NCBI GenBank assembly: GCA_037974665.1
Contig: CM075778.1
Coordinates: 10,839,001-10,903,000, forward strand
DNA: 64,000 bases
Direction: 5' to 3'
Source of the DNA: Ehretia macrophylla
Lineage: Eukaryota; Streptophyta; Magnoliopsida; Boraginales; Ehretiaceae
In this document: in pieces, positions 25,137-64,000 of the stretch
Layout: every line of letters begins with the position of its first letter
How positions within the stretch are numbered: position 1 is the first letter of the stretch
Position numbers and translations under genes: made by a program
The notes under the pieces: generated by a model
Told to the model about the DNA's origin: nothing
Seen by the model: only the letters and a program-made list of their open reading frames with translations
Databases searched by the model: none

Positions 25137-26981
25137 TGTTGAGATTAAGGCATGCCCAAAAGATCACCAGCACCTTGTCATTAATATATCTAGATATTTG
25201 CAATGAATAATTAATGGCATCTTACTTTTATGGGCATGTTTCTCTCTTATGTGGTTGACTTTTATATATGTGTGCAAAGTCCTTGCTTCAAGTGTTGACT
25301 TGGGTACGTGGTGGTTACGTATAGAAGGTCCAAGACATGGTTACTTTCAAGCAGAAATGTTTTGTCCATAACTAAGTAGTAGAGTTGGACACTTTACTAT
25401 GATAGAAGTTATTATGAAATAAGTTCCCTTTATAGTAAGTTGATCTCCCTTGATCATGGATAGGGTTCCGAACTTACTTCACTTATGCATGTGTATGCAT
25501 TAGACGGGCTACCGTAGGTATGAACTCTAAACATGTACTATCAAAGAAGAGATCTCATATACCTACTAGCTTCAAAATGGGTCAGTTCTCTTAATCTCGA
25601 ACATATAAGGATAAACTGATGAAGTCAAGTTCTTGTACTTTGAGTCACTATGGGTGAGATCTTGTATGGGTCAATAGCTCTATGATTTGGGTGTTTGGAC
25701 TTGGTTAGAAGGGACATGCATATGCAATAAGAAATTTATACAATAATTACTCCTTTAGAATGATACAAGTTGATCATCTTGAATCTGTGCATAGTAATAT
25801 AGTCTGTATTAGTTGTTACAGTTGTGGGTCGCTCCCTTGGTCAAGTGGATAACTTCCGAAGAATGGTTGGATTATGGGTTAAAGGTTCTAAGGATAAAGA
25901 TGTAGTCAAAGAGGTAATAGTATAAGTGGTAAACATGTCTTGGATATAAGTGAGTAGGGGCAATATGGTCACTATTACTTGGTTGGTCTAAAGACTGAGC
26001 GTCATATGTTGTTGTGACTAATTCCTGTACATATAGTAATTATCTTGTAATGCAGTTATAGTCTTTTAGTGGAATAGACTAAGGTTAAAATGACAAAATA
26101 TTGCTAGAGACTAGCTAGGGTATTTTGGTTATTTTTGGTGAAAAGATAATTATGTTTTTGGTCCCTCTTCTAGCCATTTACTTTATAAGTGTCATTGCTA
26201 AAGTTGGGTGTTGTTAAATGTGGGAGAGAATTAAAGTCTAAAGGCTACTAAGAATTTAAGATAAACTTTCCATACTTGGAATGAGTTTTTATTCTTAAAA
26301 GTGGACTAGACTTGGACTTAATTAATTATTTAATTGGATAAAACTTGTGGGCTAATTAGAGCATTAATTAAGCAGACCAGGGCCTAGGACGCATGGGCTA
26401 GGTGTCCTACCGTGGGCTTAGGCACGTAGAATTGTGTGTTGGGCTAAGAAGAGGATTTTCTATTATAATTATGGAATTAAAGGATAATTCAAAATCCAAA
26501 TCCTTTTTTGTCTTGGTTTCTGATTAAGACAAAACTACCTAGCATGGTTTTCACCTATATAAAGGCCTCTACCTCAAGGTCTACAATCATACCATCTCCT
26601 TTGAGATCTCTCTCTCTCTGTCGTGTAAGCATCTCAAAGAGGAAACACGAAACACTCTTCTTTTAGTTTAGTTTTGCAAGATCAAATCTACAATTTGATC
26701 AACACTTTAGGTAGAATTTGGCTTGGAGGGGAAAATCAAAGTCGAGGAGTGGAAGCAAGCTCTAGGCTTGTAGAGCATCTTTTTCAAGGTGAAGTTTTTC
26801 ATTTCGCGATTAAAAGGTATTACGAAAAACTTTGTTTGTTTTTTGAGTTAAACTATGAACTATTTAGATGTTCAATTAGCTATTTCATACTTTATGCATT
26901 TTAAAGATCCATGCATGAATGTGTCTACCTTATTATTGTCTAAGATAGTTTTTGATTCATACGTTATAACATTTTCCTTCA
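25137..26981 (+). repeat. 5' LTR of the copia element (1845 bp)
   Basis: Starts TGTTGAGATTAAGGC and ends TTTTCCTTCA, directly followed by G and the primer site. A TATA box, CCTATATAAAGG, lies at 26554-26565. Blocks such as GTGGGTCGCTCCC recur in the copia LTR at 55092-59855, and GGACATGCATATGCAATAAG also occurs, reversed, in the LTR at 62317-64000, so the three are related families. Confidence 0.85.
26554..26565 (+). promoter_or_regulatory. TATA box of the copia LTR
   Basis: CCTATATAAAGG about 420 bases before the LTR end. This is a normal position for the U3/R boundary of a long copia LTR. Confidence 0.55.
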
Positions 26982-26995: not shown

Positions 26996-27867
26996 ACTAC
27001 GAATTAAATTATGAAATAGTTAAACTAGTTTAATTAAATTCCATAAAAACTAAGAAAAATTTTTAGAACACTAAAAATTCAGATTTATTAATGTGTTAAT
27101 TGTTGCATGGAATTATGTGTTCTAAGTTATTTATATGAATATTAAATTAATTCTTGGAAATTAATTTATTTGTGGTTTTAAATAAGAATTAAACTTTGAT
27201 TAAATTACTTGGTTAATAGTAGTTTAAATGGTTACAGCTAATAGAATTTGAAACCACTTTAAACTCCCTAGAAATAATGTAGGAATTAATGGAAAATAAT
27301 TTTTCCTGTTAAAGTTTGCGATAAAAATTCTTGCGTTTAATTAAACTTCATATTAATGCGAAATTTGGTAATTGAATTAGATTAGATAACTAAAATAGTT
27401 AATCCATGTTAGCCAAGGATTCAAGACAACACAAAAAATGGAGTTTTTCCTTTAACGCGCACATGAGGACACGCGTGTTCACGCTCGAGTCATAGGCGCA
27501 ATCAACCAAGAGGTTAACTTTCCTCTTTTTTGAGTGTTATTCTTTTGTCTTGATTTTAATTTGTGGGAATTATTTTCGCATGGTTAATTTATGAAGTTAT
27601 TTTGCAGAACTTTATGGTTCAAAGTGCAAATATTGTTTTCTAGTGGGAGTTATCTAGAATTATTAATTTATCATATTCTAGAATAAAAATTTTGCTTATT
27701 CATGTGCGTATTAGATAATTAATTTTATATGAGTTTAATTTGCAAAATAGTCTAGCATTAAGATTTGAATATAGGATTAAATAATAGGCAATCCTATATA
27801 TATATATATATATCTATATATAAAGATTAAGTTCTTGATAGTCAAGTCAAATAATTAATCTAGAAAT

Positions 27868-30343
27868 TAGACTAGTAAAAATTAAAGTGTAAAGATTAAT
27901 TTAATTATGAGATTGAAATTGGTTAACAAAAATATTAAGATAACTATTTTACCTTAGAAACCTAGACTTGACTAGAGACTTAAAGTAAGCCTTATCTAGG
28001 GTTAAGAAAATAACTCAGGTTAGGTTTATGTGATTTAATGATTATACTTAAAGGTTTTAGACAAAATGATTATAGGCTTTAATCTATCTTTTTAGGAAAA
28101 ACCATAATCAAGTATTAAAGAAAAATCACATAAGTAGAAACCCTTAGTCCAAATAATCGGATAGGAAAGGGAACTAGAAAATTCCTTGACTTTCAATGTC
28201 CGGATCATGTTAAAGGGTGATAACCTCGCTATACCATACAGTATGCTCCATTCGGAGGGTGACATCATGCCTGGACTTAGTGAAATAATCTAAAATTAGG
28301 AGTTCATATAAAAGATAATAGTGGAGTGACCACCCCATCGGTGTAGTTCTAGGCTATAAATCACCTTGTAGAAATTGATGAGAGTAACATTCCCATCGGA
28401 GGCTCGAGCCGAAATAGTCTTAGGAACCCCATAAGGAATAGTGTATACACTTAACTTAAGATAGGTAGTATCCTCCCTACAAAGTAAGTGCTATTGGGAC
28501 TTGAGAAGCCAAACATATTAGTGATAGGGTTGTCACTAAAGCACAAATAATAGTTTAAAGGGTTATCTATATTGTGCATATGCATTCGTGAGTTCTTTTG
28601 TTATATTATCTCATGCGTTCTATTCATATATATATATATATATATGTCCTACATAATTTTCTCATTCTTGATTATGTTGCATGAATATCCAGATAATATG
28701 ACAGGCTCTTTTAATCCTTTGTTGGCTATTCTCACAAATAACAACCTGACTGACCCAAATTTTAATGATTGGAAGAAAAAGCTAGACATAGTACTCACCA
28801 CAAATGGGTACAAGTATGTCTTGACTCAGCCCTGCCCTTAACTGAGGGCTTATGCTACTGATGCCCAAAGGGAGGCCAATGAGAAGTGGGAAAAGGCAGA
28901 TAGCATGGCCAAGTGCTACATGCTAGCCTCGATGTCTGACGTGCTACAAGTACAACACGAGAACAATTCTATTGTTGCTGAAATCATGACCTCATTAACT
29001 GAGATGTTCTTAGATAAGAATAGGCCTACAAAGCAAGCTACAATGAGGGATATCATGACAGCCAAGATGGCAGAGGGGTCGTCTGTAAGAGAACATGTTC
29101 TCAAGATGGACTTAGACTAGTAAAAACTAAAGTGTAAAGATTAATTTAATTATGAGATTGAAATTAGTTATGAAAAATATTAAGATAACTATTTTACCTT
29201 AGAAACCTAGACTTGACTAGAGACTTGAAGTAAGCCTTATCTAAGGTTAAGAAAATAACCCGTATTAGATTTATGTGATTTAATGATTATACTTAAAGGT
29301 TTTAGACAAAATGATTATAAGATTTAATCTAGCTTTTTGGAAAAAACCAGAATTAAGTATTAAAGAAAAATCACATAAGTAGAAACTCTTAGTCCAAATA
29401 ATCGAGTGCGAGAGGAAACTAGGAAATCCCATGGCTTTCCATGTCCGGATCATGTTAAAGGGTGATAACCTCACCATACCATATAGTATGCTCCCTTCGG
29501 AGGGTGACATCATGCCTAGACTTAGCGAAATGATCTAAAATTATGAGTTCATATAAAAGATGATAGTGGAGCGACCACCCCATCGGTGGAGTTCTAGGCT
29601 ATAGATCACCTTGTAGAAATTGATGAGAGTAATCTGCCCATTGGAGGCTCGAGTCGGAATATTCTTAGGAACCCCATTAGGAATGGTGTATACATTCGAC
29701 TCAAGATAGGTAGTATCCTCCCTACGGAGTAAGTGCTATTGGGTCTTGAGAAGCCAAACATATGAGTGATAGGGTTATCATTAGAGCACAAATAATAGTT
29801 GAAAGGGTTATCTATATTGTGCATATGCATTCGTGAGTTCCTTTGTTATATTATCTCATGTGTGTTATTCATATATATATGTCTTACATAATTTGCTCAT
29901 ACTTGATTATGTTTCATGAATATCTAGATAATATGATAGGTTCTTTTAATCCTTTGTCAGCTATTCTCACGAATAACAAGCTGACTGACCCAAATTTTAA
30001 TGATTGGAAGACAAAGCTAGACATAGTACTCACCGTAAATGGGTACAAGTATGTCTTGACTCAGCCCTGCCCTCAACTGAGGGCTAATGCTACTGATGCC
30101 CAAAGGGAGGCCCATGAGAAGTGGTAAAAGGCATATAGCATAGCCAAGTGCTACATGCTAGCCTTGATGTCTGCCATGTTGCAAGTACAACATAAGAACA
30201 AAGCTACTGCTGCTAAAATCATGACCTCATTAACTGAGATATTCTTAGATAAGAATAGGCCTGCAAAACAAGCTGCAATGAGGCAGATCATGACAACCAT
30301 GATGGCAGATGGGTTGTCTGTAAGAGAACACGTTCTCAAGATG
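27868..30343 (+). repeat. 1.24-kb tandem duplication of the copia leader and gag start
   Basis: 27868-29108 and 29113-30343 run in parallel at an offset of about 1245 bases, from TTAGACTAGTAAAA through the leader and gag to GTTCTCAAGATG. They differ by scattered substitutions and a shorter AT tract in copy 2. At the junction, copy 1 gag reads VREHVLKM and then passes into the leader and a stop. Confidence 0.92.
28698..29119 (+). pseudogene. Copia gag, first (truncated) copy
   Basis: Starts MTGSFNPLLAILTNNNLTDP and continues NDWKKKLDIVLTTNGYKYVL, the conserved N-terminus of copia gag in the UBN2 family. There is a stop after TQPCP (28839). The frame then continues to VREHVLKM, where the tandem duplication cuts the gene. 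Confidence 0.85.
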
Positions 30344-48889: not shown

Positions 48890-49989
48890 CTCAAATGGAT
48901 ATGGGAAAAACTGTTAGCTTCGAGTGTAAGCAATTCAAAAAATTGAAGTGAATAAGTAACGTATAAACGAAATTTGAGGGCTCTCTACGTTAATTTGGTG
49001 TAGTTTCTTTTTTTCTTTTTTCTTAAAATTTGCCGTTTTTTATATCTCAGTATTTGTTTACTTTTGTTGTCGTCAAAGACACGTGTCGGTTCAAATGTAC
49101 GAACATTTAAAGAACCAAATCGAAGAACCGACTTCAGGTGGTCAGGTTTGTTCCTTGTTTTAAAGGTCATCTTAATTACCAAAGCTCATCGACCTTCAAT
49201 TGCTTGAAGCCCATCAACTTGGATTTGATATTTCTCTTTTGGAAAGAAAGAGATAAACTTAACAAAGACTTGTGCAATAAATAAAATAGGATTTATATGT
49301 TCCAATAAACGCTTGTGCAAAAATAAAATAGGATTAATAATTTAAATAAAGTGAAAAAGACACAGAATTTACGTGAAAATCCTTTCAAATAATGAAGGTA
49401 AATAATCACGGGGCAAAAACTTCACTATATAAATAAAATAATGGGATTAAGGAAAAAGAAAAGAAAAACTATCCTAAAAAATTTCCAAAAGTAATCTAAC
49501 CTGAATCAATAGATTCTCTCTCTTAATCTCTATGTAAGGGATACGTAAGGGATAGGAAATTCTCTCTATCTCTATGATAGGAAGCTTTCTCTATCTATGT
49601 GATAGGAAAATCTCTCTGTGTTCTCAAAGTATGAGAAGAATGAGGTATTTATAGGAGAGAATATGATCCTAAATAGACTAGGATTGGTGATACTAATCCA
49701 TTTGGGATTTGAAATTAATATAGATGAGGATGTTAAGAAATTATTTTCCCAATGGGTTTGAAAAACTCAACAAATCTCATTCTCCAGTCCCAAGAGAAGG
49801 GGGGCCTTGCCCGTCATTACTTGTTCCAATTCATCCCAGTCATATCTCTACAAAACTCGAGTTTCTCTCTCGGTACAATCTTTGTGAGCATATCGACTGG
49901 ATTTTCATTAGTGTGAATCTTTGTCAGCTTTATTAGTTATTTCTCCATGACTTCGCATATCCAATGATATAGAATGTTGATATACTTGG

Positions 49990-51480
49990 TACGGGAATAA
50001 CACATGGAATTTTTTCTTAGATTCATTACCCTCTGACCATCGCAATTAACCATGTACTCATCTTGCTTCAATCCCAACTCTTAGAGGAAAAGTTTTATCC
50101 ATAACATTTTTTGCCAGCTTCAGCAACTACAATATATTTTGCTTCAGCTGTAGATATTTTTGCAATTTGGACTGCCATGACACAACTCCCCCTGCAAAAG
50201 TAAACAAATATGCAGGAATAGACTTTCTACAGTCGAGATCTCATGCCATATCAGCATCTACATATCCTTCCAAGATAGGTCTTGAGATACCAAAGCATAG
50301 GTATAACTTAGAAGTACCCTTTAGGTATCTGAGGATCCATTTTACTACCTCCCAATGTTTTGTATTAGGATTTGAGAAAAATATGCTTACAATACCTACA
50401 ACATGGGCAATATTTGCTCAAGTGCATAACATTGCATACATTAAACTTCCTACTACAAAGGAGTAGGGAATACATGTTATCTCATCTCTTTCTTGTTGGT
50501 TGAAAGGACATGATTTCTTGCTAAGCTTGAAATGATTGGCAAGAAAAGTACTCACAGGTTTGTCACTCTCCATGTTGAATCTTGGGAAAATCTCAACATT
50601 TAGTCCCTATTGTTTGCAAAATATCTCAATTTAGTCCTTATTGTTCCCCTAAAAGTTTCAATTTCATCTCTATTGTTTACACTTTTCAATTTCGTCCTTA
50701 TTATTTTCTAAAAAGTTTCAATTTCGTCCCTATTATTTTTAAAAAGTTTCAAATTCATCCTATTGTTGCTCAAAAAAAATTAATTTAGTTCTTGGATAAT
50801 AGGGACGAATTTGCAACTTTAAAAAAATAATAGGGATGAAATTAAAACTTTTTAAAAATAATAGGGACGAAGTTGAAACTTTTTTAAAAATAATAAGGAC
50901 TAAATTGAGACATATTAAACAATAGGGATGAAATTGAAACTTTTGGTAAAACAATGAGGACTAAATTGAGACATTTTAAACAATAGGGACTAAACCTTGA
51001 CACTTTGCAAACAATAGGGACTCAATGTGAAATTTCCCCTTGAATCTTTTAATCACTTGTTCAATGTACTTCTGTTGTGACAACTACAACTTCTTAACCT
51101 TGCGATCTCGAACTATCTTCATGCCCAAGATTTGTTGGGTTAGACCTAAATCTTTCATTTTGAAGGACTTGGATAACTCTTTCTTTAACTTTCCAATCAT
51201 TTCGATTTCTCATCCAACAATCAACATATCATCTACATATAGTAAGAAAATAATAAAGTCACCACTAGAAAACTGCTTGATGTAGATGTATTGGTCAGCT
51301 TCAGGTCTTTTGTATCCACAACTCACCATGAACGAGTCAAATTTCTTGTACTATTGTCGTGGTGCTTGTTTGAGACCATATAATTTTTTTCTTAGTTGAC
51401 AAACCTTATAATCTTTACCTTTTTCTTCAAATCATTCAGGCTACTCCATATAAATTTCTTCTTCTAAGTTACCATGATTC
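49990..51480 (-). pseudogene. Copia RT-RNase H remnant
   Basis: The frame reads EEIYME, QLRKKLYGLKQAPRQ, FDSFMVSCGYKRPEADQYIY and FIIFLLYVDDMLIVG (the RT active site is intact). It resumes beyond the MITE with ESDKPVSTFLANHFKLS, WILRYLKGTSKLYL and GGVVSWQSKLQKY of RNase H. Several stops are present. Confidence 0.82.
50584..51039. mobile_element. Palindromic MULE-type MITE inside copia pol, 456 bp
   Basis: A perfect 9-bp target duplication, TTGAATCTT, lies at 50575-50583 and 51040-51048. The ends are GGGAAAATCTCAACATTTAG and, reversed, GGGGAAATTTCACATTGAG. The arms carry alternating TTTAGTCCCTATTGTTT motifs in inverted orientation. Excision with one duplication copy restores the copia reading context. 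Confidence 0.9.
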
Positions 51481-52526
51481 TCCATATCCTTTAACATATG
51501 TATACCTGGCAATCTGACCTTGGTGTCTAGTAGCTAATCAAATACCAAATGAAATTAAATCTTAACCAATGGTTTCTTCAGAATTTGCCCCATTTCAGGA
51601 CTTTTTCGATAGGAGCCTGACATGAAATCTTCTCCCAATCAATAAAAATTAGCAAACGCAATGGAGAGGCCAGGGGCAGAGGGAAGGATCTCCAAAAATA
51701 ATATATTTATTGGATTGTTTAAAAAAAAAAAAAAAAGATTTGGCTCCCCCAAAATAAAAAGGAAAAAGGTTGTATGAACTGTCAACAATATGAAGTTGGC
51801 CTTGGTGGTTAATAACATGCATTGTTGTGTTGTTAGCTCTGGTTCGACTTACTGCTGCAACAAAGTTTTTTTTTTTTTAGTTTCTAGTTTTAAGTTGATA
51901 TATATATATATATATATAAATAAATAAGAATGGCTGGGAAAATGCCACGTAGGAACTTCCCTTTGCCAATTTTTCTAGGAAAACACTTCCCTTTTTATTA
52001 ATCTATCATCTATTTATCATCTATCATTTATCTTTCTTTTTTAATTTTAGCTATCATCTTCATCTTCTTTGTCTTTGCTGCGAAAACAACAAGTACATTT
52101 TTTTTGTCATATATAGTTCTATACGATCATATCATCTAATACTTGCTCATGTACAACTTAAAAAAGAAAGCTATACGTTTATACATTTCTTTTTGTCATT
52201 AATTTATTTTTAACTACCATATGATAGTAGTAGATGGCAATAACTTTATTTTGTCTTTTTGTAAAATTATTACTTTTTGGTTTACTAGTGATTAACTGAA
52301 ATTCATCATTGCATAATTGCATCAATTTTTTATGGTGATGCAGTTATGTCATTGCTAATCATCCTTTATTGATTGTTGAAATCTATCTTGATATAACTTT
52401 GATCTATACGTCAATAGGAACTGTGATGTATGCCTTTATTGCTATTCATTATGGTAATGGTTCAACGCTTGACTTGTAGTTGATATTCGTATAAATATTT
52501 ATTGATTAATATTTTCAGGTTAAAAT

Positions 52527-54950
52527 ATGAGTAAGTGTAAAATAATTTATTCATTCTTTAAAAGAAAAAAAAATGATGTTGACTCAGAACCTGGAGAACA
52601 ACCTTCTATATCTGATAATGATACAAATATAATTTTAGAACCTCCAACAAAATTTTCAAGGATTGAAAATGAGACAATTGATATAAGTTCTTTAGTGTGT
52701 GACCCGGGTTTATGTCCTCAAATTTGGGAGTATCCAGTTAACCAAAGAGATAAAATTCATAAAGCATGTATTAATTTGGTCCATATCAACATATTCAATT
52801 ACATTATCCATATTCTGGACAAGAGAGTCATCCACACCGATTTCAAGCTCATTAGTTTAAAATATTTTATTGGTTGGAGTATTCACCTACAAAAGATGCT
52901 GTGTTCTATTTTTCTTGTTATGTATTTGCAAAAGAATCAAATGAAAAATCTAGATCATATGTATTCGCTGCTAAGGGATTTAAAATTTAGAAAAAAGTAA
53001 ATAGCAAAAAATATTGTGCTTTTTTATCTCATGTAAGGAATGATAGCAATTCAGCTCATAATTCAGCTGTCAAAGATTGTAAGAATTTGAAGAACTCATA
53101 TTGAAAAGGTGATGCAAAGGCAAACTTCTTCACAAATTTTAAAAAATCGCTTGTGCCTTAAAGCTTCCATAGATGTTGTTCATTGGTTAACATTTCAAGG
53201 ATGTGCTTTAAGAGGGCATGATGAAAGTTCATATTCAATAAACCAAGGTAACTTTCTTGAAATGATAAATATGTTAGCATCTTACAATGAGAAAGTGCAT
53301 GGAGTTGTTTTGGATAATGCCCTACAAAATTCTAAATATACATCACATATTATTCAAAAATAAATTTTATCTATTTTGACTAGAAATGTGAAAATCAATA
53401 TTTGTAAAGAGATTGGTGAAACAATATTTTGTTTAATTGTTGATGAAGCTCGAGATGAATCTAAGAGCAAGCAAATTGTTCTTGTTATAAGATTTGTTGA
53501 TAATGAAGGATTTGTTAGAGATAGATTTTTGACCTTGATTCATGTTACAAACACCAAAGCATTAACTCTTAAAAGAGAGATTTCTTGTGCATTATCTCAT
53601 CATAACCTCAATATTCTTAATATTCGGGGCCAAGGGTATGACGGAGCTAGTAATATGCGTGGATAATGGAATGAGTTGCAAGCTTTGTTTTTTAAAGATT
53701 GTCCTTATGCTTATGTGCAATGTTTAGCTCATCAATTATAACTAGCTCTTGTTGCTGCATCTAGAGAAGTTTATGATATACATAACTTTTTTGAAAACTT
53801 GAGTTTGATTGTTAACATTGTGGGGTCTTCTTCCAAGCGCAATGATGAATTACAAGCTGCCCAAGTAACTGAAAATGCACATTTAATTGAACGTGGTGAG
53901 ATTAATACTAGTAAATGATCCAATCAAATAGGAACTTTACAACATCCTGGAAAAACTAGATGGAGTTTACATTTTAATTCAATGTGTAGTTTGATAAGGA
54001 TGTTTGATGCCACTTGAGTAGTTCTCCATAATATAGCTATTGAATGATCTATTTACTTTCAACGTGGAGATGCTACCTTTGCTATTAAGCTATTGATATC
54101 ATTTGATTTTGTATTTATCTTGCATATGATGAAAGAAATTATAGGTATAACAAATGTGCTTTTCCAAGTTCTGCAACAAAAATCTCAGGACCTTTTAATA
54201 CAATACATATAGTGTCAAATATAAAATCGTTACTGCAAAGATTGAGGGATGTTGGTTAGGAAACTCTCATAGAGAATGTGACTTCTTTTTGTTCTCATCA
54301 AAATACACAAGTTCCTGATATGAATGCTTCTTACTCTAACATAGTCCAATCTCGGCGTTGAAAGGATATTGTAACAATGGAGCATTATGACCAACTAGAC
54401 ATATTTACAACTACTATAGATCAACAATTATAAGAATTAAATAGCAGATTTAGTGAGCAAGCAATTGAACTTCTTACTCTTAGCACAACATTGGATTCTA
54501 GGGATAATAATAAGTCATTTGTAGTTAATGCTATATGCAAACTTGCTGAAAAATTTTATTGTTCTGACTTCTCTGAACAGAAGATGATTCATTTAAAATA
54601 TGAATTGTAGTATTATAAGCTTGATGTGCCTAATCATCCTAACTTGAAAATTTTGACTAGCATAACAGATATGGGTAAAGGATTGGTGAAAACTGAAAAA
54701 TAAAAAGTTTATCTTTTAGTTGAAAGATTGATACGGTTGATTTTAACTCTTCTTGTCTCGACAATAACTACAGAACGAGCTTTTTCTGCTATGAAGGTTA
54801 TCGAAACAAGGCTTCAAATTGAATGAACGATGGATCTCTTAAAGATACCTTAATTGTTTATATAGAAAAAGAAATTGCCAAAGATGTTCCTATGGTTATA
54901 ATAATTGATGAGTTCTATTCCATGAAGGAAAAACGAGCACAACTTCATTG
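52527..54950 (+). pseudogene. hAT transposase of the TTF/ZMYM-like class, degenerate
   Basis: Starts MSKCKIIYSFFKRKK, then DPGLCPQIWEYPVNQRDKIH of the TTF-type zinc-finger region, followed by frameshifts. The DUF4371-type part reads ASIDVVHWLTFQGCALRGHD, FCLIVDEARDESKSKQIVLV and GQGYDGASNMRG (53109-53666). Remnants of the middle domain follow with several stops. The C-terminal dimerisation domain reads TTERAFSAMKVIETRLQ (about 54765), with a stop just after it. At least ten stops or shifts, so it is inactive. Confidence 0.88.
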
Positions 54951-55091
54951 ACTGAACAGGTAAACATTATTTTGTATATCTTATGTTATTTTTGGTAAAT
55001 AATATTTTATTTATTTATTTATGTTTAAAAATTTAATATCGTTAATCTTCTAAATGAATTAGAATCTCAGCCCCCTAGTATTCCTGGTTCC

Positions 55092-58000
55092 TGTCAGGAA
55101 TTGTATGCCCTAAAAACTGATAGCACTAAGACATCTCAGTGAAGGGATATTATAACAATTAATAATCAGTGCATCTAACATGAGCATCTTTATACTCTCA
55201 TTATATTCTCTCTATATATGCATGCTAAGACTCCTTGATTTGAGTGAATGACATAGGTGTGTGGTGATCCGCACAAAAGGTATATAGTAACGCCCCAATC
55301 CCTCACGGAATCGAGACCAAATAATAGCAACCTGTCCCAATCTCAAGGCACAAAAAACGAAAAAAAACATATAGAGTTTCTCCTATACCTAGGCCAAACC
55401 AAAACCTGCTCACAGAATATTTCCACAACATACAACAACCATAACTTGTACAAGATTCCATTTCTAGTTAATAAGATAATTCTAGCTTTCTTTTACTTAG
55501 AATAAATATAACTAGGCATTCTAACTAATCACCCAAGAACTAAGCAGTTATTTAGACTTATTACATGTCATTTATTAGTTATCTAGCTTTAATTACACGC
55601 CTTTACAACTATGAATTACATACAAGATTACTTACAAAATAAATACAAGGTCAAATTATCAATAATGACTTCACTTTACAACATTTTCAATCGCATATCA
55701 CAAGTATCCAACTCAAGTAATTAATGCAATGTTTCCACTTCTCATTCCTTTACAATTCAAGGCACAATCTCAGCATCCTGAAATATATTAGATAAAAAGG
55801 GTAAGCAAAATACTATGCTCAGTTAGGGAAGGAAGAATTAATCTGGGGAGCTTTGAAAACGTTTTCGTGCAATGCATGTAAACAGCTATATTATTAAGAA
55901 ATAAGGACATTAAAGGGAATACAAGAGTCTAATAACAATATGGAGCAATCATTTAAATTCAATAAGCTCCAAGCAATAAAAATAATACACATTGACCGAA
56001 CTAGCATAAGTTGATAGGAAAAAGAATAAGAACACTTTCAAGCATTAAAACCTTAAATAACCATACAACCTAACTCCAAGGAACAAGAGCCCAAGCGAGA
56101 GTAGGTACCATAAATATAAAAAAAGAAAATGATCTCGATCACGAGCACGAACCACAAGCCACAAGCACGAACAAGATCACGATCTCAATCAAGATACGAT
56201 AACGATAACGATAACATAGCCGGCATCCCTTTACACCAACGGGGGTGCTCCAGATGTAACACCTCATTATCCTACGACCCAACTCTCCAACGAACTAGGG
56301 CCCAAGTGAGAGGAAATAGGGTACGGAGGTCGAGCAACAATTGGCAAGCCCGATGCTGCCCAGGGAGGCCCAACACATCTATCCCGAAATGGTTGCGCAA
56401 CCACGATAACAATAACGATACAACATTTAACACTTAACATTCACACGATTCTGTAACACACAATTGAGGACAACAAAAGAAGTTGTCCTCGCAAGTAGGC
56501 AATAGACAACAATGTAAACGATAGAACACGTCAGATAAGCTATAGCAATCAAAGTGAGCAATAAAACATATTTACCTTCAATTCAAAGTTATGAACTCAT
56601 GTATACAATCAATCTCTAACTTTCCGATTAACCACATATAAGCAACATTCAACTCTTTAGCAATTAAACATTTATAATTTCAATTAAAGCTATCTTAATT
56701 CACAATTTAAGTATTCTAAAAGTTCAAGACAATATAAGATAGAACACCCTATAACAACTAACAATTTATAGCACAACTTAGCATTCAACCCTTTTAGCAA
56801 TTAGACAACCCAATTTTCAATCAAGACTGCTTTATAACACATTAAAACTCTTTAGACAACACTTAACTAACCAAATTTAATTCAATTAATGACAATCAAA
56901 GAAGCATGCATTAAGCTAACATTTAACTTTTCTAGCAACTAGTCAATCCAATTTCCAAACAAGATTACTTTGCTAGCTCATTAGACATTTTATAACCATC
57001 AACTAACTCAATTAAACTCTAGCAACCACTTAGCATTTACAAGGATTCATTTAGCATAAAAACAAGCCTCACACACACGACCATTTACACGCACACATAC
57101 ACAACCTCTTACACTTACACTATGCTCAACGATCTTTTGACGCATTCTAGCTAGTTTAGACACTTATTTAGCTATGTGAACACCTATAACACTTCACTTA
57201 GGCATTTAAATAAGCACATAGCCATCAAACATTGTCTTTTGTAGCAAAATAACTATTCATCATCTTCTTCATTCAATCACATACCAACTCTAGCTAAACA
57301 AATACAACTAAGCTAAAAGTTTACTCTACTAGCTAGCTAAACGACATTGCATGCAAGAACAAGCTTTATCTCAACCATTTACACTATAACAAATATTATA
57401 CTAACAAAGCAATTAACTAAAATGTACAAATAAATAAAATCCCTCACCAAAATAAAGTAGAAGAGGCTTTGATCTTGCTTGGAACACCTCTAGCTAGCTT
57501 GGATTTGCTCTCCATATGCCCAAAAACCCTAGCTTTTCTTCCCTTTTTTTTTCTCTTCATGGCCGGCTTCTTCATCTTCTCTTTCTTTGATTTTTTGTTC
57601 ATTTTTTGTATTATATGATGATAGATAAGCATGTTGGGCCTTGGGTTTTGGTTGTATATGGTTTGGGCTCATATAAAAATAATTCAAAACTAACTAGTTG
57701 GCCCAAAAACAAAGCTAACTTCATTTGGCCCAAAATAATTCCTACAAGCTCTACTATTTATACGGTTGACTAATCATTTTATATCTCTCGTTCCTGATAT
57801 GCTATGCACGTAATTTCAATGAACAAATGCATAAAATATGGTAAGTAATGAGCGAAAAATATAAAATTAAAAAAATAAAATAGTTGAAAATTCACTCCGG
57901 GCTTGGAGCTACTTATTCAAATAATTGAAAATAGTGAAACTAACAATTAAATGCAAGAGAATGATTTCAAATAAATTTAATACTAAGATAATTATTTCAT

Positions 58001-59855
58001 TTAAATTAATCTAATACAATTTGTATGTTTTTCAAGAAATGTGAAAATAGTGCTAATAAATGGATGAAATTAATTAAAGTAAACACATAGTTATGCACAA
58101 CCACTTAATATAAACACATATGCATATGCAAGTAAGTATTATTCACTATATGCTAGGTCCGGGATGTCACTTATATGCCATGAGGCTTGAATTTAAACTA
58201 TAGGCTCATAACCATATAGTGAAATTGGGCACTTCACTATGAAATGTTATAATGAGAAAGTCTTCTATTTGGTAGAGTGACCTACCTTGGTCATTGGAGG
58301 GGCTTTCGATACTTTTCTCATTAGTAAACAAGAGTACATTGAACTGGACTATGGTAGATGTGACCTCTGTAAAAGTATTATCGCTCGTATGAGATCAGAA
58401 ACATCTCAAGCTACTAAGTGACCAATGTTCTAGTTCTTGAGCATATGTGGATGACCAATGAACCCAAGGATATTTGTTTTGATTCACTATGGATAAGATC
58501 TTATATGGGTCAATAACTCTGTGTTTTAGATACATGAACTTGACTAGTTGACACATGCATATGTGTCAGGCCATTCTATGTCATCTTAATTGGTGGGTTA
58601 TAACGCCTTTGTGGCATCCTATTAATCATCGGAACCTAAGTACTTTGTAATATAGTCAACTGAGACTATATTTAGATATTAAACTTGTGGGTCGCTCCCT
58701 AGATCAAGAGAATAATATCTAGATGATGATTATTAAAGGACTAAAGGCATCAAGTATAAAGGTAATCAAGAAATGTTGATAGTACAAGGTTAAGACCTAA
58801 TATTGATTACGGGTTCTACATGTAATGACATTTTGGTCATTTTGCTTAGTAGGTCAAAGACAAAGGTCAAACATCATTTGATTACGTTCTAGGGAATCAG
58901 TATTCATTCTAGAGTGCAGTCATAGCTCTTTAGTGGAATGAGCTAGGGCTAAAATGAATAAAATGCAGCTAGGGTTTAGCAGGGGCATTTTAGTCATTTT
59001 AGAGCTAGGGCGAATATGTATTTTGGTTCCTCTTCTAGCTAATTTCCATATTGATAAGTACACATTCCTTTTCTCTATGAACGGCATGTAGAGTGTGTAT
59101 TTAACAAGATGAAGTTGTGTGGATGGATTAGGAAAGTAGGAAGATGGAATTGTAGGGTATCTATTATTATAGGACTCTTTATTTTATGAATTTATCTTTA
59201 TTTGTTTAAAGATATGGAAATTCATAAAGATAAATAAAGAGATTATGCAATAGATTATCTAACATATTATCTTCATTAATAGTGTGGACAACTTGTAGTC
59301 CAAATACATTATTATATGCAAGTGCAATTCCTAGGTCTCCTAGTATTCCTAAAACACACGAGTCACTTAAGACTCTTGCTAAGCTAATACATGGTCAACA
59401 AAAAGAAAAAAATGAAGAGTTTTTCATCACTTCTTCTCTTGAAAGAATACCACATGACCATAGAGAGGAAAAAGGAGAGTGATTCGTCCCACAACGAATA
59501 CCACCAAAGCTTGGAATTAGAATAGGAGAGAAGATCAATTGAGTCTTCTCCTTTAGTTGCTATTTTCTTCTTCCATTGGTACGACACTCTCAGCCAAGAC
59601 AAGTAAGGAGGAGTGGCATCCACTCATTGCAGCCATAACGTGGTAAACATATTATAGTGTTGAGTTTTGACACCAACACTTAAGGTAATCAAATCTGTCC
59701 GCAAAAATTAAACAACATTATATGCATGTATACTAGCATGTTTTATATATATTTGCTTGGTTTTCAGTTCTTGTTGCTTTCACTGCCATAGATTAAGTTT
59801 TTGATGCATAAAATCATTAGTAATCTAGGTAATCGAACCCTGGTAATAACCATCA
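55092..59855 (+). mobile_element. Copia solo LTR nested in the hAT element
   Basis: Starts TGTCAGGAATTGTATGCCC and ends GGTAATAACCATCA. It is flanked by GTTCC (55087-55091) and TTTCC (59856-59860), a 4-of-5 match. Joining the flanks restores the hAT right end. Without the nested gypsy LTR it is about 1.88 kb, the same size as the copia LTR at 25137-26981. It shares with that LTR GTGGGTCGCTCCCT and GGACACTTTACTATGA-like blocks. There is no internal domain, so it is a solo LTR. Confidence 0.78.
55286..58169 (+). repeat. Gypsy (Tekay/Del-like) solo LTR nested in the copia LTR
   Basis: The left end is AGTAACGCCCCAATCCC and the right end is GCTAGGTCCGGGATGTCA. These are degraded forms of the TGTAACGCCCC...GGGGCGTTACA ends of Tekay-type chromovirus LTRs. 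The copia LTR resumes at once on the right with ACTTATATGCC. It is about 2.88 kb with no pol sequence. A target duplication is not clear; TATAT at 55281-55285 and 58172-58176 is possible. Confidence 0.65.
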
Positions 59856-59875
59856 TTTCCGCCCCTGGGAGAGGC

Positions 59876-61418
59876 AGCGCGTATTCTCTACTACAGACCA
59901 AGACGACATATTAGGTTTCTCTTAATAAGACCAAGATCCACCTTATGGCCAAAGAGATCTCTGATGTTGTTAATCCCATAAAGCATCATTGTAGGCCTTT
60001 CAAATGAAAGGCCCCATGCAATGACCCGAACAGTGTAAATCTTTTCATATATATATATATAAGTGAGTAAGAATATCTTTGTAATTTTATTTTCTAAAAA
60101 ATATGCCCACAAGTTAAAAAAGTTAGATTCTCACCTGTTCACATGAAAAACAAATTTGAGAAATTCATGGGAATACTTATTCTATGCCCATGAATATTTT
60201 TTTTTATTTTGCAAACCAAATATAAGAGTATTACATTCCTGACTTCACTTTTCGAGAAATCCTACAAGATTCTACAAACTAAATACCCTTTTACAAAAAA
60301 AGGTTATTTTCAAGATTTAACATAGCCCATTATGAAATTTAAGTCTGAATTTCAAAACCTGTAATAAATTGCTCAAACTTTTAAAAATGACTATTTTACA
60401 TATACATTGACCACCTAATATGGGCTTAATATCTCTATACCGCACTAATATTTTTTTTCATACTACTCTGGGAGTAAAGGTCAAGACCAGTACTTGGAAC
60501 ATGATAAATATTGCCAAAGCCCAATACTGCAGAGGAAATTACTTTGCTAGTTGAATGGGCGAAACCTGATAGTCTATGCATATTGCTGTCTCTAAAAGGT
60601 TGGTCGTTCACCTCCTTATATAATTTAGTTAATGAAGTTGGCCCTTATAATCGTTAAAAAATATGCGAATGCATAAATTATTGGTTCTTTGTACCTTATT
60701 TATTATTTAGTGTTTTGTTTTCTGTAAATGTTAAAAACTCATAGAAGAAAAAAACTTCAAGAAAAATATTAACATTTTACCCCTGAATATTTGTTGTCTT
60801 TTTTAGGTTAATATCACTTTAGCCCCTTAATGTACATATAATGTATCATTTTGTCATCTCATATTTATTTTATCTCACTTAAACTCTTTACGTTATTGAG
60901 TACAAAGAGAAGGGGCATATTTATATTTGTATAATTTATAATGGCTATAAAAAAATTTATTTTAGTAAAATATGGAAGTGTTAAGTGATACAAATGAAGG
61001 GAAAAATATTTCATTGTATATAAGTTGAAGGGGGTACAATTATTTAAACTAAAAACATTAATGACACTTTGCCAATTTAGTGCATATTGTATAGCATTTT
61101 GTCTCCTAATTTATATTTTGTATCTCTTAACCCTTTTATAAGGTAAATAAAAAGGGTATTTTGTAAATTCTTATATTTTGCTTCGTAATGTTTATTAGAA
61201 ATTATTCTTTATAGAGATCGCAAATGATATTTTGAGTTTGACTTCTATTCTAAAACTTTGGCAAATTTTCCCAGTAGGAGCATTTTTGGTCTAAACCCAA
61301 TCCTATGCGAATCTTATACCTAACTAGACTAACCTGTTTTGCATGATGTTTTCTCATTTTAAGGTGATCATGCTCTAAGATCAGAGTATTCTAGAAGTCA
61401 AGTACCAACTTTATCTCC
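59876..61418. other. Intergenic, no gene recognised
   Basis: AT-rich. Between about 60780 and 61180 two stretches resemble each other (ATATCACTTTAGCCCCTTAATG and ATGACACTTTGCCAATTTAG, each followed by GCATTTTGTC-like sequence). They may be arms of an old MITE, but no flanking duplication was found. Confidence 0.4.
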
Positions 61419-62316: not shown

Positions 62317-64000
62317 TGAAGGAAAACGGGGTTAGGTTACATGATTCATATTCAAAAATTTTTATGAACATGGCGGAAACAATCATGTAGGATCTTACTA
62401 CGATTAAACATGTAATAGTAAAACAAAAAATAGTTTACAATTTAATTCCCAAATGAAACAAGGATCTAGGCGTCTCTTGTGAAGAACGATGCAAGAACAC
62501 AAAACACCTTGATCTACAAGTCTGGGAGATATTGCTTCTACTCCTCTACTTTGATCTTCTTCTCTATGACCAATACATTTCTAAAGTATAATCTAGTTGT
62601 GGGACTAGATTTTGCTAAATTAAAATATATAAACTAGAATTGAGTTTCTTCACAAAGGCGAAACTTATTCAAGAGAGAGAAAATAAATCTCAGAAGAGAT
62701 GGTGTGTGGAGCATTTTTCAGAGTTAGAGAATAGGCCTATTTATAGGCAGAAGATCTAGAGAAAAATTCATGAAATTTTGATGTAAGATTTGGTAAGAGA
62801 AAAGTCCAAATCTCTTACACAAGTAATTTACTATTTTTTTCTCCTTCTCCCTTCTTTTCCTCCCTATAGCCGATTTTCCTAAGGTGGGTGGGTCCCACCT
62901 CCTACGTCCAGCCTTGGCTTGTAAGCCACGGTCCTGGTTCAGCTAGCTTGCTCCAATTTAATTTAATCCTGACAATAATTAAAAAATAGAAATTCATGTC
63001 CACAAAATAGAAAGTCTATTTTTAAATATCTAATTGTCAATAAATTAAATACTCCTTGATTAATTCTAAAAGTCTAAATTTAAACTACTATTTAAGAATA
63101 ATCTATTTTTCCAATAGTTAAAAAATTATCTTAAATATCTCAGCAGTCTTCTAGACTTTAATTAATCAATTAATTACATAATCCAATATTTTGACCATTC
63201 TCAAAATAGAAACTCCTTCCCAAAATGGAAAGTCTACTTTGATTCTAATCGTCAAAGGATTACATCATCTCTCAAAATAATATATTTTAACTAAGTTTAG
63301 ATACTTAACAAGGTAGATGGCTAGAAGAAGAACCAAAAACATAATTAACATTTTTTCTGGAAATGAATAAAATATTATTGCTAGTCCCCTATAAATACTT
63401 TACCATCTCAACCAAGTCTATTCCACTAAAGGACTTCGGCTGCACTCAAGGATAATTATTGTAAGTACATGAGTCAGTCAATCTATACATGATGCTCTGT
63501 CTTTTGACCAACTAAGTATTATATTGATCATAATGCCCATCTATACTCATTCATAGCCAAAGACAGGTTCCGGAAGTGTACTATCACCTCTTTGACTACA
63601 TCTTGTCTTTTAGAAACTCTAATCTACAATCCAACCATCCTTCTGAAGTTATTCACTTATCTAAGGGAGTTACCCTTAAGTGTGACATTCAACACCTCAA
63701 GTGTTACTGCGACCACATATTCAGGATGATCTAGCTTGGATCATTCTAAGGAAATGATTAATGTATAGATTACTTATTGCATATGCATGTCCGTCTAATC
63801 AAGTTCTATACACCCAAACCACATAGTAGGTGATCTAACTATTAATACCACACCCATAATGGATCAAAGTGTAAGCACTCAACTTCATCGGTTCATCCAC
63901 ATATGCTCAAGATTGAGAGCTATGGTCTACTTAGAAGCTTGTAGGTTTAGGTGAACTCTTTCTTTGATAGTACATATTCAGAGCTCACACCTATGGGGTC
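62317..64000 (-). repeat. Copia LTR, 3' end in window, running off the right edge
   Basis: On the - strand it ends GTTTTCCTTCA at 62317, matching the end of the copia LTR at 26981, and contains GGACATGCATATGCAATAAG, AGATGTAGTCAAAGAGGT and TGTTTTTGGT-TCTTCTTCTAGCC blocks in the same order. No primer site follows at 62316, so this is either a 3' LTR, with its element beyond the window, or a solo LTR. Confidence 0.82.

Follow-up and report, generated by a model that had tools for sequence, protein, structure and literature searches.

We analysed a 64-kb stretch of the Ehretia macrophylla genome (C15:10839001-10903000, hereafter the window), taken from an assembly of 1.58 Gb in 20 contigs. At one spot it very probably (we put the probability at roughly 0.94) holds a nest of successive insertions, in which a hAT transposon, a copia long terminal repeat (LTR) and a further, inner LTR would have entered, one within the other, a layer composed of a PheRS-alpha (phenylalanyl-tRNA synthetase) gene fragment and copia sequence. 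At the level of sequence, comparison with relatives establishes the nesting order and the limits of the layers. The target site duplications (TSDs) agree at 8/8 bp for the hAT element, 4/5 bp for the copia LTR and 5/5 bp for the inner LTR. A first-pass annotation had described a hAT element containing a copia solo LTR containing a gypsy solo LTR. It left the limits of the inner LTR unstated; we place them at 55286-58171. It also missed the layer in which a PheRS-alpha fragment is fused to copia pol.

The outer hAT element

The main part of the outer element (51671-55091, + strand) starts with the terminus CAGGGGC, carries a decayed transposase and runs to GGTTCC; its final 7 bp, GCCCCTG, lie at 59861-59867 (+ strand). 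The two copies of its TSD, GGAGAGGC, occupy 51663-51670 and 59868-59875. Inside them the termini read CAGGGGCAGAGGGAAGG and, from the opposite end and across the insertion, CAGGGGCGGAACCAGG. The + strand of the window contains two copies of GGAGAGGC and no more, one abutting CAGGGGC and the other GCCCCTG, and the reverse complement of this word is absent from the 64 kb. These counts bear out the earlier claim that exact 8-bp flanks fix the outer limits. Together with two unoccupied sites described below, they led us to reject a chance match between the flanks.

In the window the right end reads CTGGTTCC, is followed by 4,769 other bases and resumes as GCCCCTG. The genome was searched with the last 593 bases of the right end; 40 of 510 first-look candidates were scored and 20 loci were fetched, the window among them. 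An uninterrupted right end, at most two substitutions from CTGGCTCCGCCCC, is present in 17 of the 19 relatives, and in the other two (L022 and L024) it is not shown within the fetched stretch. The 17 fall into nine downstream-flank groups, one of six members and one of four, and therefore represent fewer than 17 independent insertions, some being duplicates of one. Alignment of the junction to these copies upholds the proposal that the terminus was cut after GGTTCC (55091) and resumed at GCCCCTG (59861).

The outer target is itself found unoccupied elsewhere. Our query here was 600 bases long and consisted of both hAT flanks with a single copy of the TSD. Among the 40 candidates scored out of 197 were two paralogous sites that run continuously across the insertion point, one on C3 (C3:45231767-45232047, 79% over query 104-368) and one on C13 (C13:19580694-19580789, 78% over query 271-368). 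The C13 site is the cleaner of the two, reading CGAGAGGCAGCG where the window carries GGAGAGGC...GGAGAGGCAGCG, with CGAGAGGC against the window's GGAGAGGC.

The 3.4-kb body encodes a transposase on the + strand that is broken by stops and frameshifts, and this copy is therefore unlikely to move on its own. Eight open pieces were scanned separately in Pfam and three gave matches, to PF14291 (DUF4371; 4.1e-17 and 9.4e-24, 63.3 and 85 bits, cutoff 32.1) and to PF05699 (hAT dimerisation; 7.1e-5, 23 bits, cutoff 21.4). The 8-bp TSD, the short terminal inverted repeats CAGGGGC/GCCCCTG and the transposase domains are traits of the hAT superfamily and support the previous identification of 51671-55091 plus 59861-59867 as a hAT element. 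Plant hAT elements with a DUF4371/hAT-dimerisation transposase, which we take to be the TTF-type zinc-finger group, share the 8-bp TSD, the CAGGGGC...GCCCCTG termini and the PF14291 and PF05699 domains. The window element differs from them in being decayed and in its first 820 bp.

Those first 820 bp (51671-52490) are unlike the common relatives L008, L059, L060 and L062, and show partial likeness only to a cluster on C4 (L002-L007, C4:11.51-11.77 Mb). In this cluster the left terminus and leader adjoin the start of an oppositely pointing transposase. By eye, the left end of another relative (L061:1167) resembles the right end of the family in inverted form (CAGGGACGGAATCGAAAATTAATACTGG...), which suggests that left ends in the family may be swapped.

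The copia-family solo LTR

Seven base pairs short of the hAT right tip stands an LTR of 1,873 bp with TG...CA ends, in two pieces on the + strand: 55092-55285, beginning TGTCAGGAATTG, and 58177-59855, ending AATAACCATCA. Its TSD copies are GTTCC (55087-55091) and TTTCC (59856-59860), with one mismatch between them. Its limits were set by relatives found with the query 59000-59866 (40 of 275 candidates scored; 30 loci fetched including the window). Some relatives have a common flank (L030/L031, L033/L036 and L035/L037) and may duplicate one insertion. On the right, the alignments of most relatives end at 59855-59856, with a few reaching 59858-59861. Of the 29 relatives, 21 allowed the left piece to be placed, and 11 of these begin TGTTGGGAATTG; the left end aligns with 55092, the first 5-7 bases partly by extrapolation. 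LTR length in the relatives is about 1,830-1,882 bp.

Ten of the 29 relatives continue into a tRNA-Met-type primer binding site (PBS) like TGGTATCAGAGCC, and eight are preceded by a polypurine tract (PPT) resembling AGTGCAAGTGGGAGTA. Five are solo LTRs with a TSD (at most one mismatch) elsewhere in the genome, five have no recognisable left end and one is ambiguous. No PBS or interior adjoins the LTR in the window. The copia solo LTR of the first-pass annotation is supported, with limits that match the relatives.

The assignment of this middle LTR to a copia family is supported by the sequence of an apparently complete relative (L056 with L065), whose interior of about 5.4 kb includes an open piece resembling copia-type gag at a score just under the Pfam cutoff; four other L065 pieces scanned gave nothing. 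The tRNA-Met-type PBS of the relatives, the TG...CA ends and the length of 1,873 bp are likewise those of a Ty1/copia solo LTR, from which the window copy departs in its 4/5 TSD and in being interrupted by another LTR. A retrotransposon interior between the two pieces was rejected, the 2,886-bp insert being itself the LTR of another family.

Long open gag, protease and reverse transcriptase (RT) pieces of gypsy type lie at L063 (C2:6475500-6478700), ~3 kb downstream of the copia-family LTR of L045. They raised the possibility that the middle LTR is gypsy, which we set aside; a separate gypsy-type element at L063 is favoured because L065, another copy, shows a likeness to copia gag.

Two other stretches of the window, 63300-63996 and 25512-26193, are 74% alike in inverted orientation, and parts of them resemble the copia LTR of the nest more weakly. 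They are perhaps LTRs of a related family.

The inner solo LTR

The copia LTR is split after its bp 194 by a 2,886-bp LTR of a high-copy family (55286-58171, - strand), flanked by TATAT at 55281-55285 and 58172-58176. All 21 placed copia-LTR relatives have the target without this insert, with TATAT at that point in all but L046 (20 of 21); in the window 2,886 other bases stand between two copies of TATAT, a TSD of 5/5. The minus sense follows from the relatives, in which the end corresponding to 55286 is flanked externally by a PBS and that corresponding to 58171 by a PPT.

Genome searches with the right and left parts of the insert gave 3,443 and 1,506 first-look candidates, respectively, and 40 were scored for each. 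Among these, 23 of 61 left-part matches (the window's own excluded) begin at window position 55287, and 32 of 41 right-part matches end at 58169 or 58170. We fetched 11 left and 12 right ends, reading the last bases of the latter by eye. The first base is T in ten of the 11 and A in one (L100); among the 12 right ends, 11 close with A and one (L083) with T. TG...CA termini are absent from the inner LTR copy of the window, where the bases at 55286 and 58171 are A and T, the two ends being altered symmetrically.

We selected three complete relatives because their two LTRs lie near each other (1.0-1.13 kb apart); they have interiors of about 1 kb each (C2:4957513-4958640, C19:22723436-22724446 and C19:22709580-22710568). 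One (L091) runs from TGGTATCAGA, a PBS, after one LTR to AGTGAGGGGGAGAGAG, a PPT, before the next; the other two (L092 and L093) show, in the corresponding positions, PBS-like and purine-rich stretches that have diverged. Open frames in the three interiors reach at most 129 aa, and six longer ones gave no Pfam match to gag or pol, the one hit being unrelated and far below cutoff (E 0.072). Judged from the copies seen, the family is probably non-autonomous. We take it to be LARD-like (large retrotransposon derivative): the LTRs of 2.4-2.9 kb, the PBS, the PPT and the pol-less interior of ~1 kb in three relatives are as in such elements, although the interior is presumably shorter than in classical LARDs.

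Whether the inner LTR comes from a gypsy (Ty3) element, as had been proposed, is an even call. Its length, its GTAACGCCCC-type end and the tRNA-Met-type PBS fit some plant Ty3 lineages, but the three complete relatives offer only 1.0-1.1 kb of interior with no gag or pol in the six pieces. With no recognisable pol in the interiors examined, and no search made for copies with longer ones, nothing ties the family to Ty3 over Ty1. The second solo LTR inside the copia LTR is retained from the first-pass annotation, and its gypsy label, a guess, is not shown by the three interiors.

Both ends were fetched for four copies of the family (C1:73669898, C2:12266323, C8:67456107 and C18:50541475). Read by eye, three have the matching flanks of solo LTRs (TGTTA/CGTTA, GCTTA/GCTTA and AGAAC/AGAAC) and one is PBS-adjacent. 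The solo-LTR samples of this and the copia family are small and similarity-ranked.

An intronless PheRS-alpha fragment joined to copia pol

The layer that received the hAT element comprises, on the - strand, a piece of PheRS-alpha 3' untranslated region (UTR) to its left (51474-51670) and, to its right, the last coding exons followed by the start of the 3' UTR (59876-60032). Matches to PF01409 (class II core, F) come from window piece 59894-60130 (2.8e-8) and from two exon pieces of the C3 gene copy (4.6e-12 and 1.1e-12); the designation alpha is one we presume from a motif. In the C3 and C13 gene copies introns follow GAAAG and CATAAG. Both are exactly absent from the window copy, which therefore derives from spliced RNA.

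At 51474-51477 the PheRS-alpha 3' UTR gives way to copia RT sequence of the same sense. The copia pol remnant (RT and downstream; 49432-51477, - strand) matches RVT_2 in short pieces at 1.7e-5 and 6.1e-5, both below the Pfam cutoff, and its continuous relative L076 does so at 2.1e-21. In L076 and L070 the copia sequence at the joint continues instead into upstream RT. The joint carries TCAT, common to the copia side, where the gene has TTAT, and no poly-A is seen there. The 15 copia matches of the joined query all stop at the same base (query 107, window 51477), and the 40 scored candidates include no second PheRS-alpha/copia chimera. At the other end, the PheRS-alpha match stops at 60032 and a repeat of about 250 bp starts at 60039. 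The 1.4 kb of upstream copia sequence in L076 finds no match right of the nest, which speaks against the gene copy having simply inserted into an intact copia element.

Our preferred, if tentative, reading, to which we give slightly less than even odds, is that the chimera arose by template switching between copia RNA and spliced PheRS-alpha mRNA during reverse transcription, a form of gene capture. That the chimera formed so and that the hAT and later LTR elements landed in it afterwards is, taken jointly, held with the same reserve.

The copia pol remnant also contains a 456-bp near-palindromic (foldback) insert, GGGAAAAT...ATTTCCCC, at 50584-51039 with a perfect 9-bp TSD, TTGAATCTT; in L076 and L070 the sequence is uninterrupted at that point. 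Insert and TSD are what we would expect of a miniature element of Mutator type, a superfamily assignment that is our assumption.

Apart from the nest, the window has a direct repeat of ~1.24 kb, 90% identical and nearly head to tail (27867-29108 and 29112-30343).

Order of events and origin of the solo LTRs

The order of events is readable because each layer interrupts the next outer one and relatives lack the insert at each joint; the succession of hAT, copia and inner LTR in the first-pass annotation is supported by those relatives. First, a fragment of spliced PheRS-alpha mRNA would have been placed beside, and fused with, copia pol sequence. The hAT element would then have inserted into the 3' UTR of this fragment with an 8-bp duplication, and a copia LTR retrotransposon 7 bp from the hAT right tip, recombination between its LTRs leaving the single 1,873-bp copy. 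Last, a high-copy and probably non-autonomous LTR retrotransposon would have entered the copia LTR after bp 194 in reverse orientation, with a 5-bp duplication, and have been reduced likewise to one 2,886-bp LTR.

Several observations weigh against this nest. Its outer empty sites are paralogous, within the same genome, none being orthologous from a related species, and the one on C3 has an 8-bp gap exactly at the insertion spot. The hAT left end finds no match in common relatives. The copia LTR flanks, GTTCC and TTTCC, agree at only 4/5, a level that a random pair of 5-mers reaches in ~1.6% of cases (our own arithmetic, equal base use), and the L065 match to copia-type gag (PF14223; 1.5e-5, 25 bits) lies just under the cutoff of 27. 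Finally, the outermost bases of the inner LTR, which reads AG...CT, are A...T where the family normally has T and A.

On the standard inference, the single LTRs come from LTR-LTR recombination. They might instead never have been full elements here, having come in as single-LTR DNA (derived from circles, for example) and been inserted as such; no internal sequence remains and a full-length stage is not directly visible. We regard this as extremely improbable, since both families have relatives with a PBS and PPT, paired LTRs are seen in both, and solo LTRs with a TSD are described as arising by LTR-LTR recombination (PMC7251063).

The first-pass annotation had read two such collapses in one spot as active DNA removal. 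Two solo LTRs do lie inside 4.8 kb, and a removal hot spot with unusual local recombination would account for them, but we consider it highly unlikely. Long LTRs generally favour LTR-LTR recombination, and solo LTRs with TSDs of both families occur on other contigs. A 15-species survey reports solo LTRs as widespread in plants, in proportions that differ between chromosomes (PMC7251063), which would allow for a local effect. These occurrences, on other contigs and across plants, are why we find no support for active removal at this spot.

The locus is unnamed in the literature turned up by our searches, which were not designed to settle that question. Layering of transposable elements within one another, with solo LTRs, is common in plant genomes, and nothing essential separates this nest from such clusters (that of wheat 3B, for example) except that its outermost layer is a chimeric gene fragment. 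Because a lone LTR cannot be compared with a partner, these LTRs give no ages. What the locus provides is a legible succession of four or more events in a single place, every joint checked against relatives. As a nest it is an ordinary record of insertions, and the chimeric gene fragment is its more interesting part: if template switching did join copia RNA to PheRS-alpha mRNA, the fragment would be a small natural record of LTR retrotransposons picking up host mRNAs.

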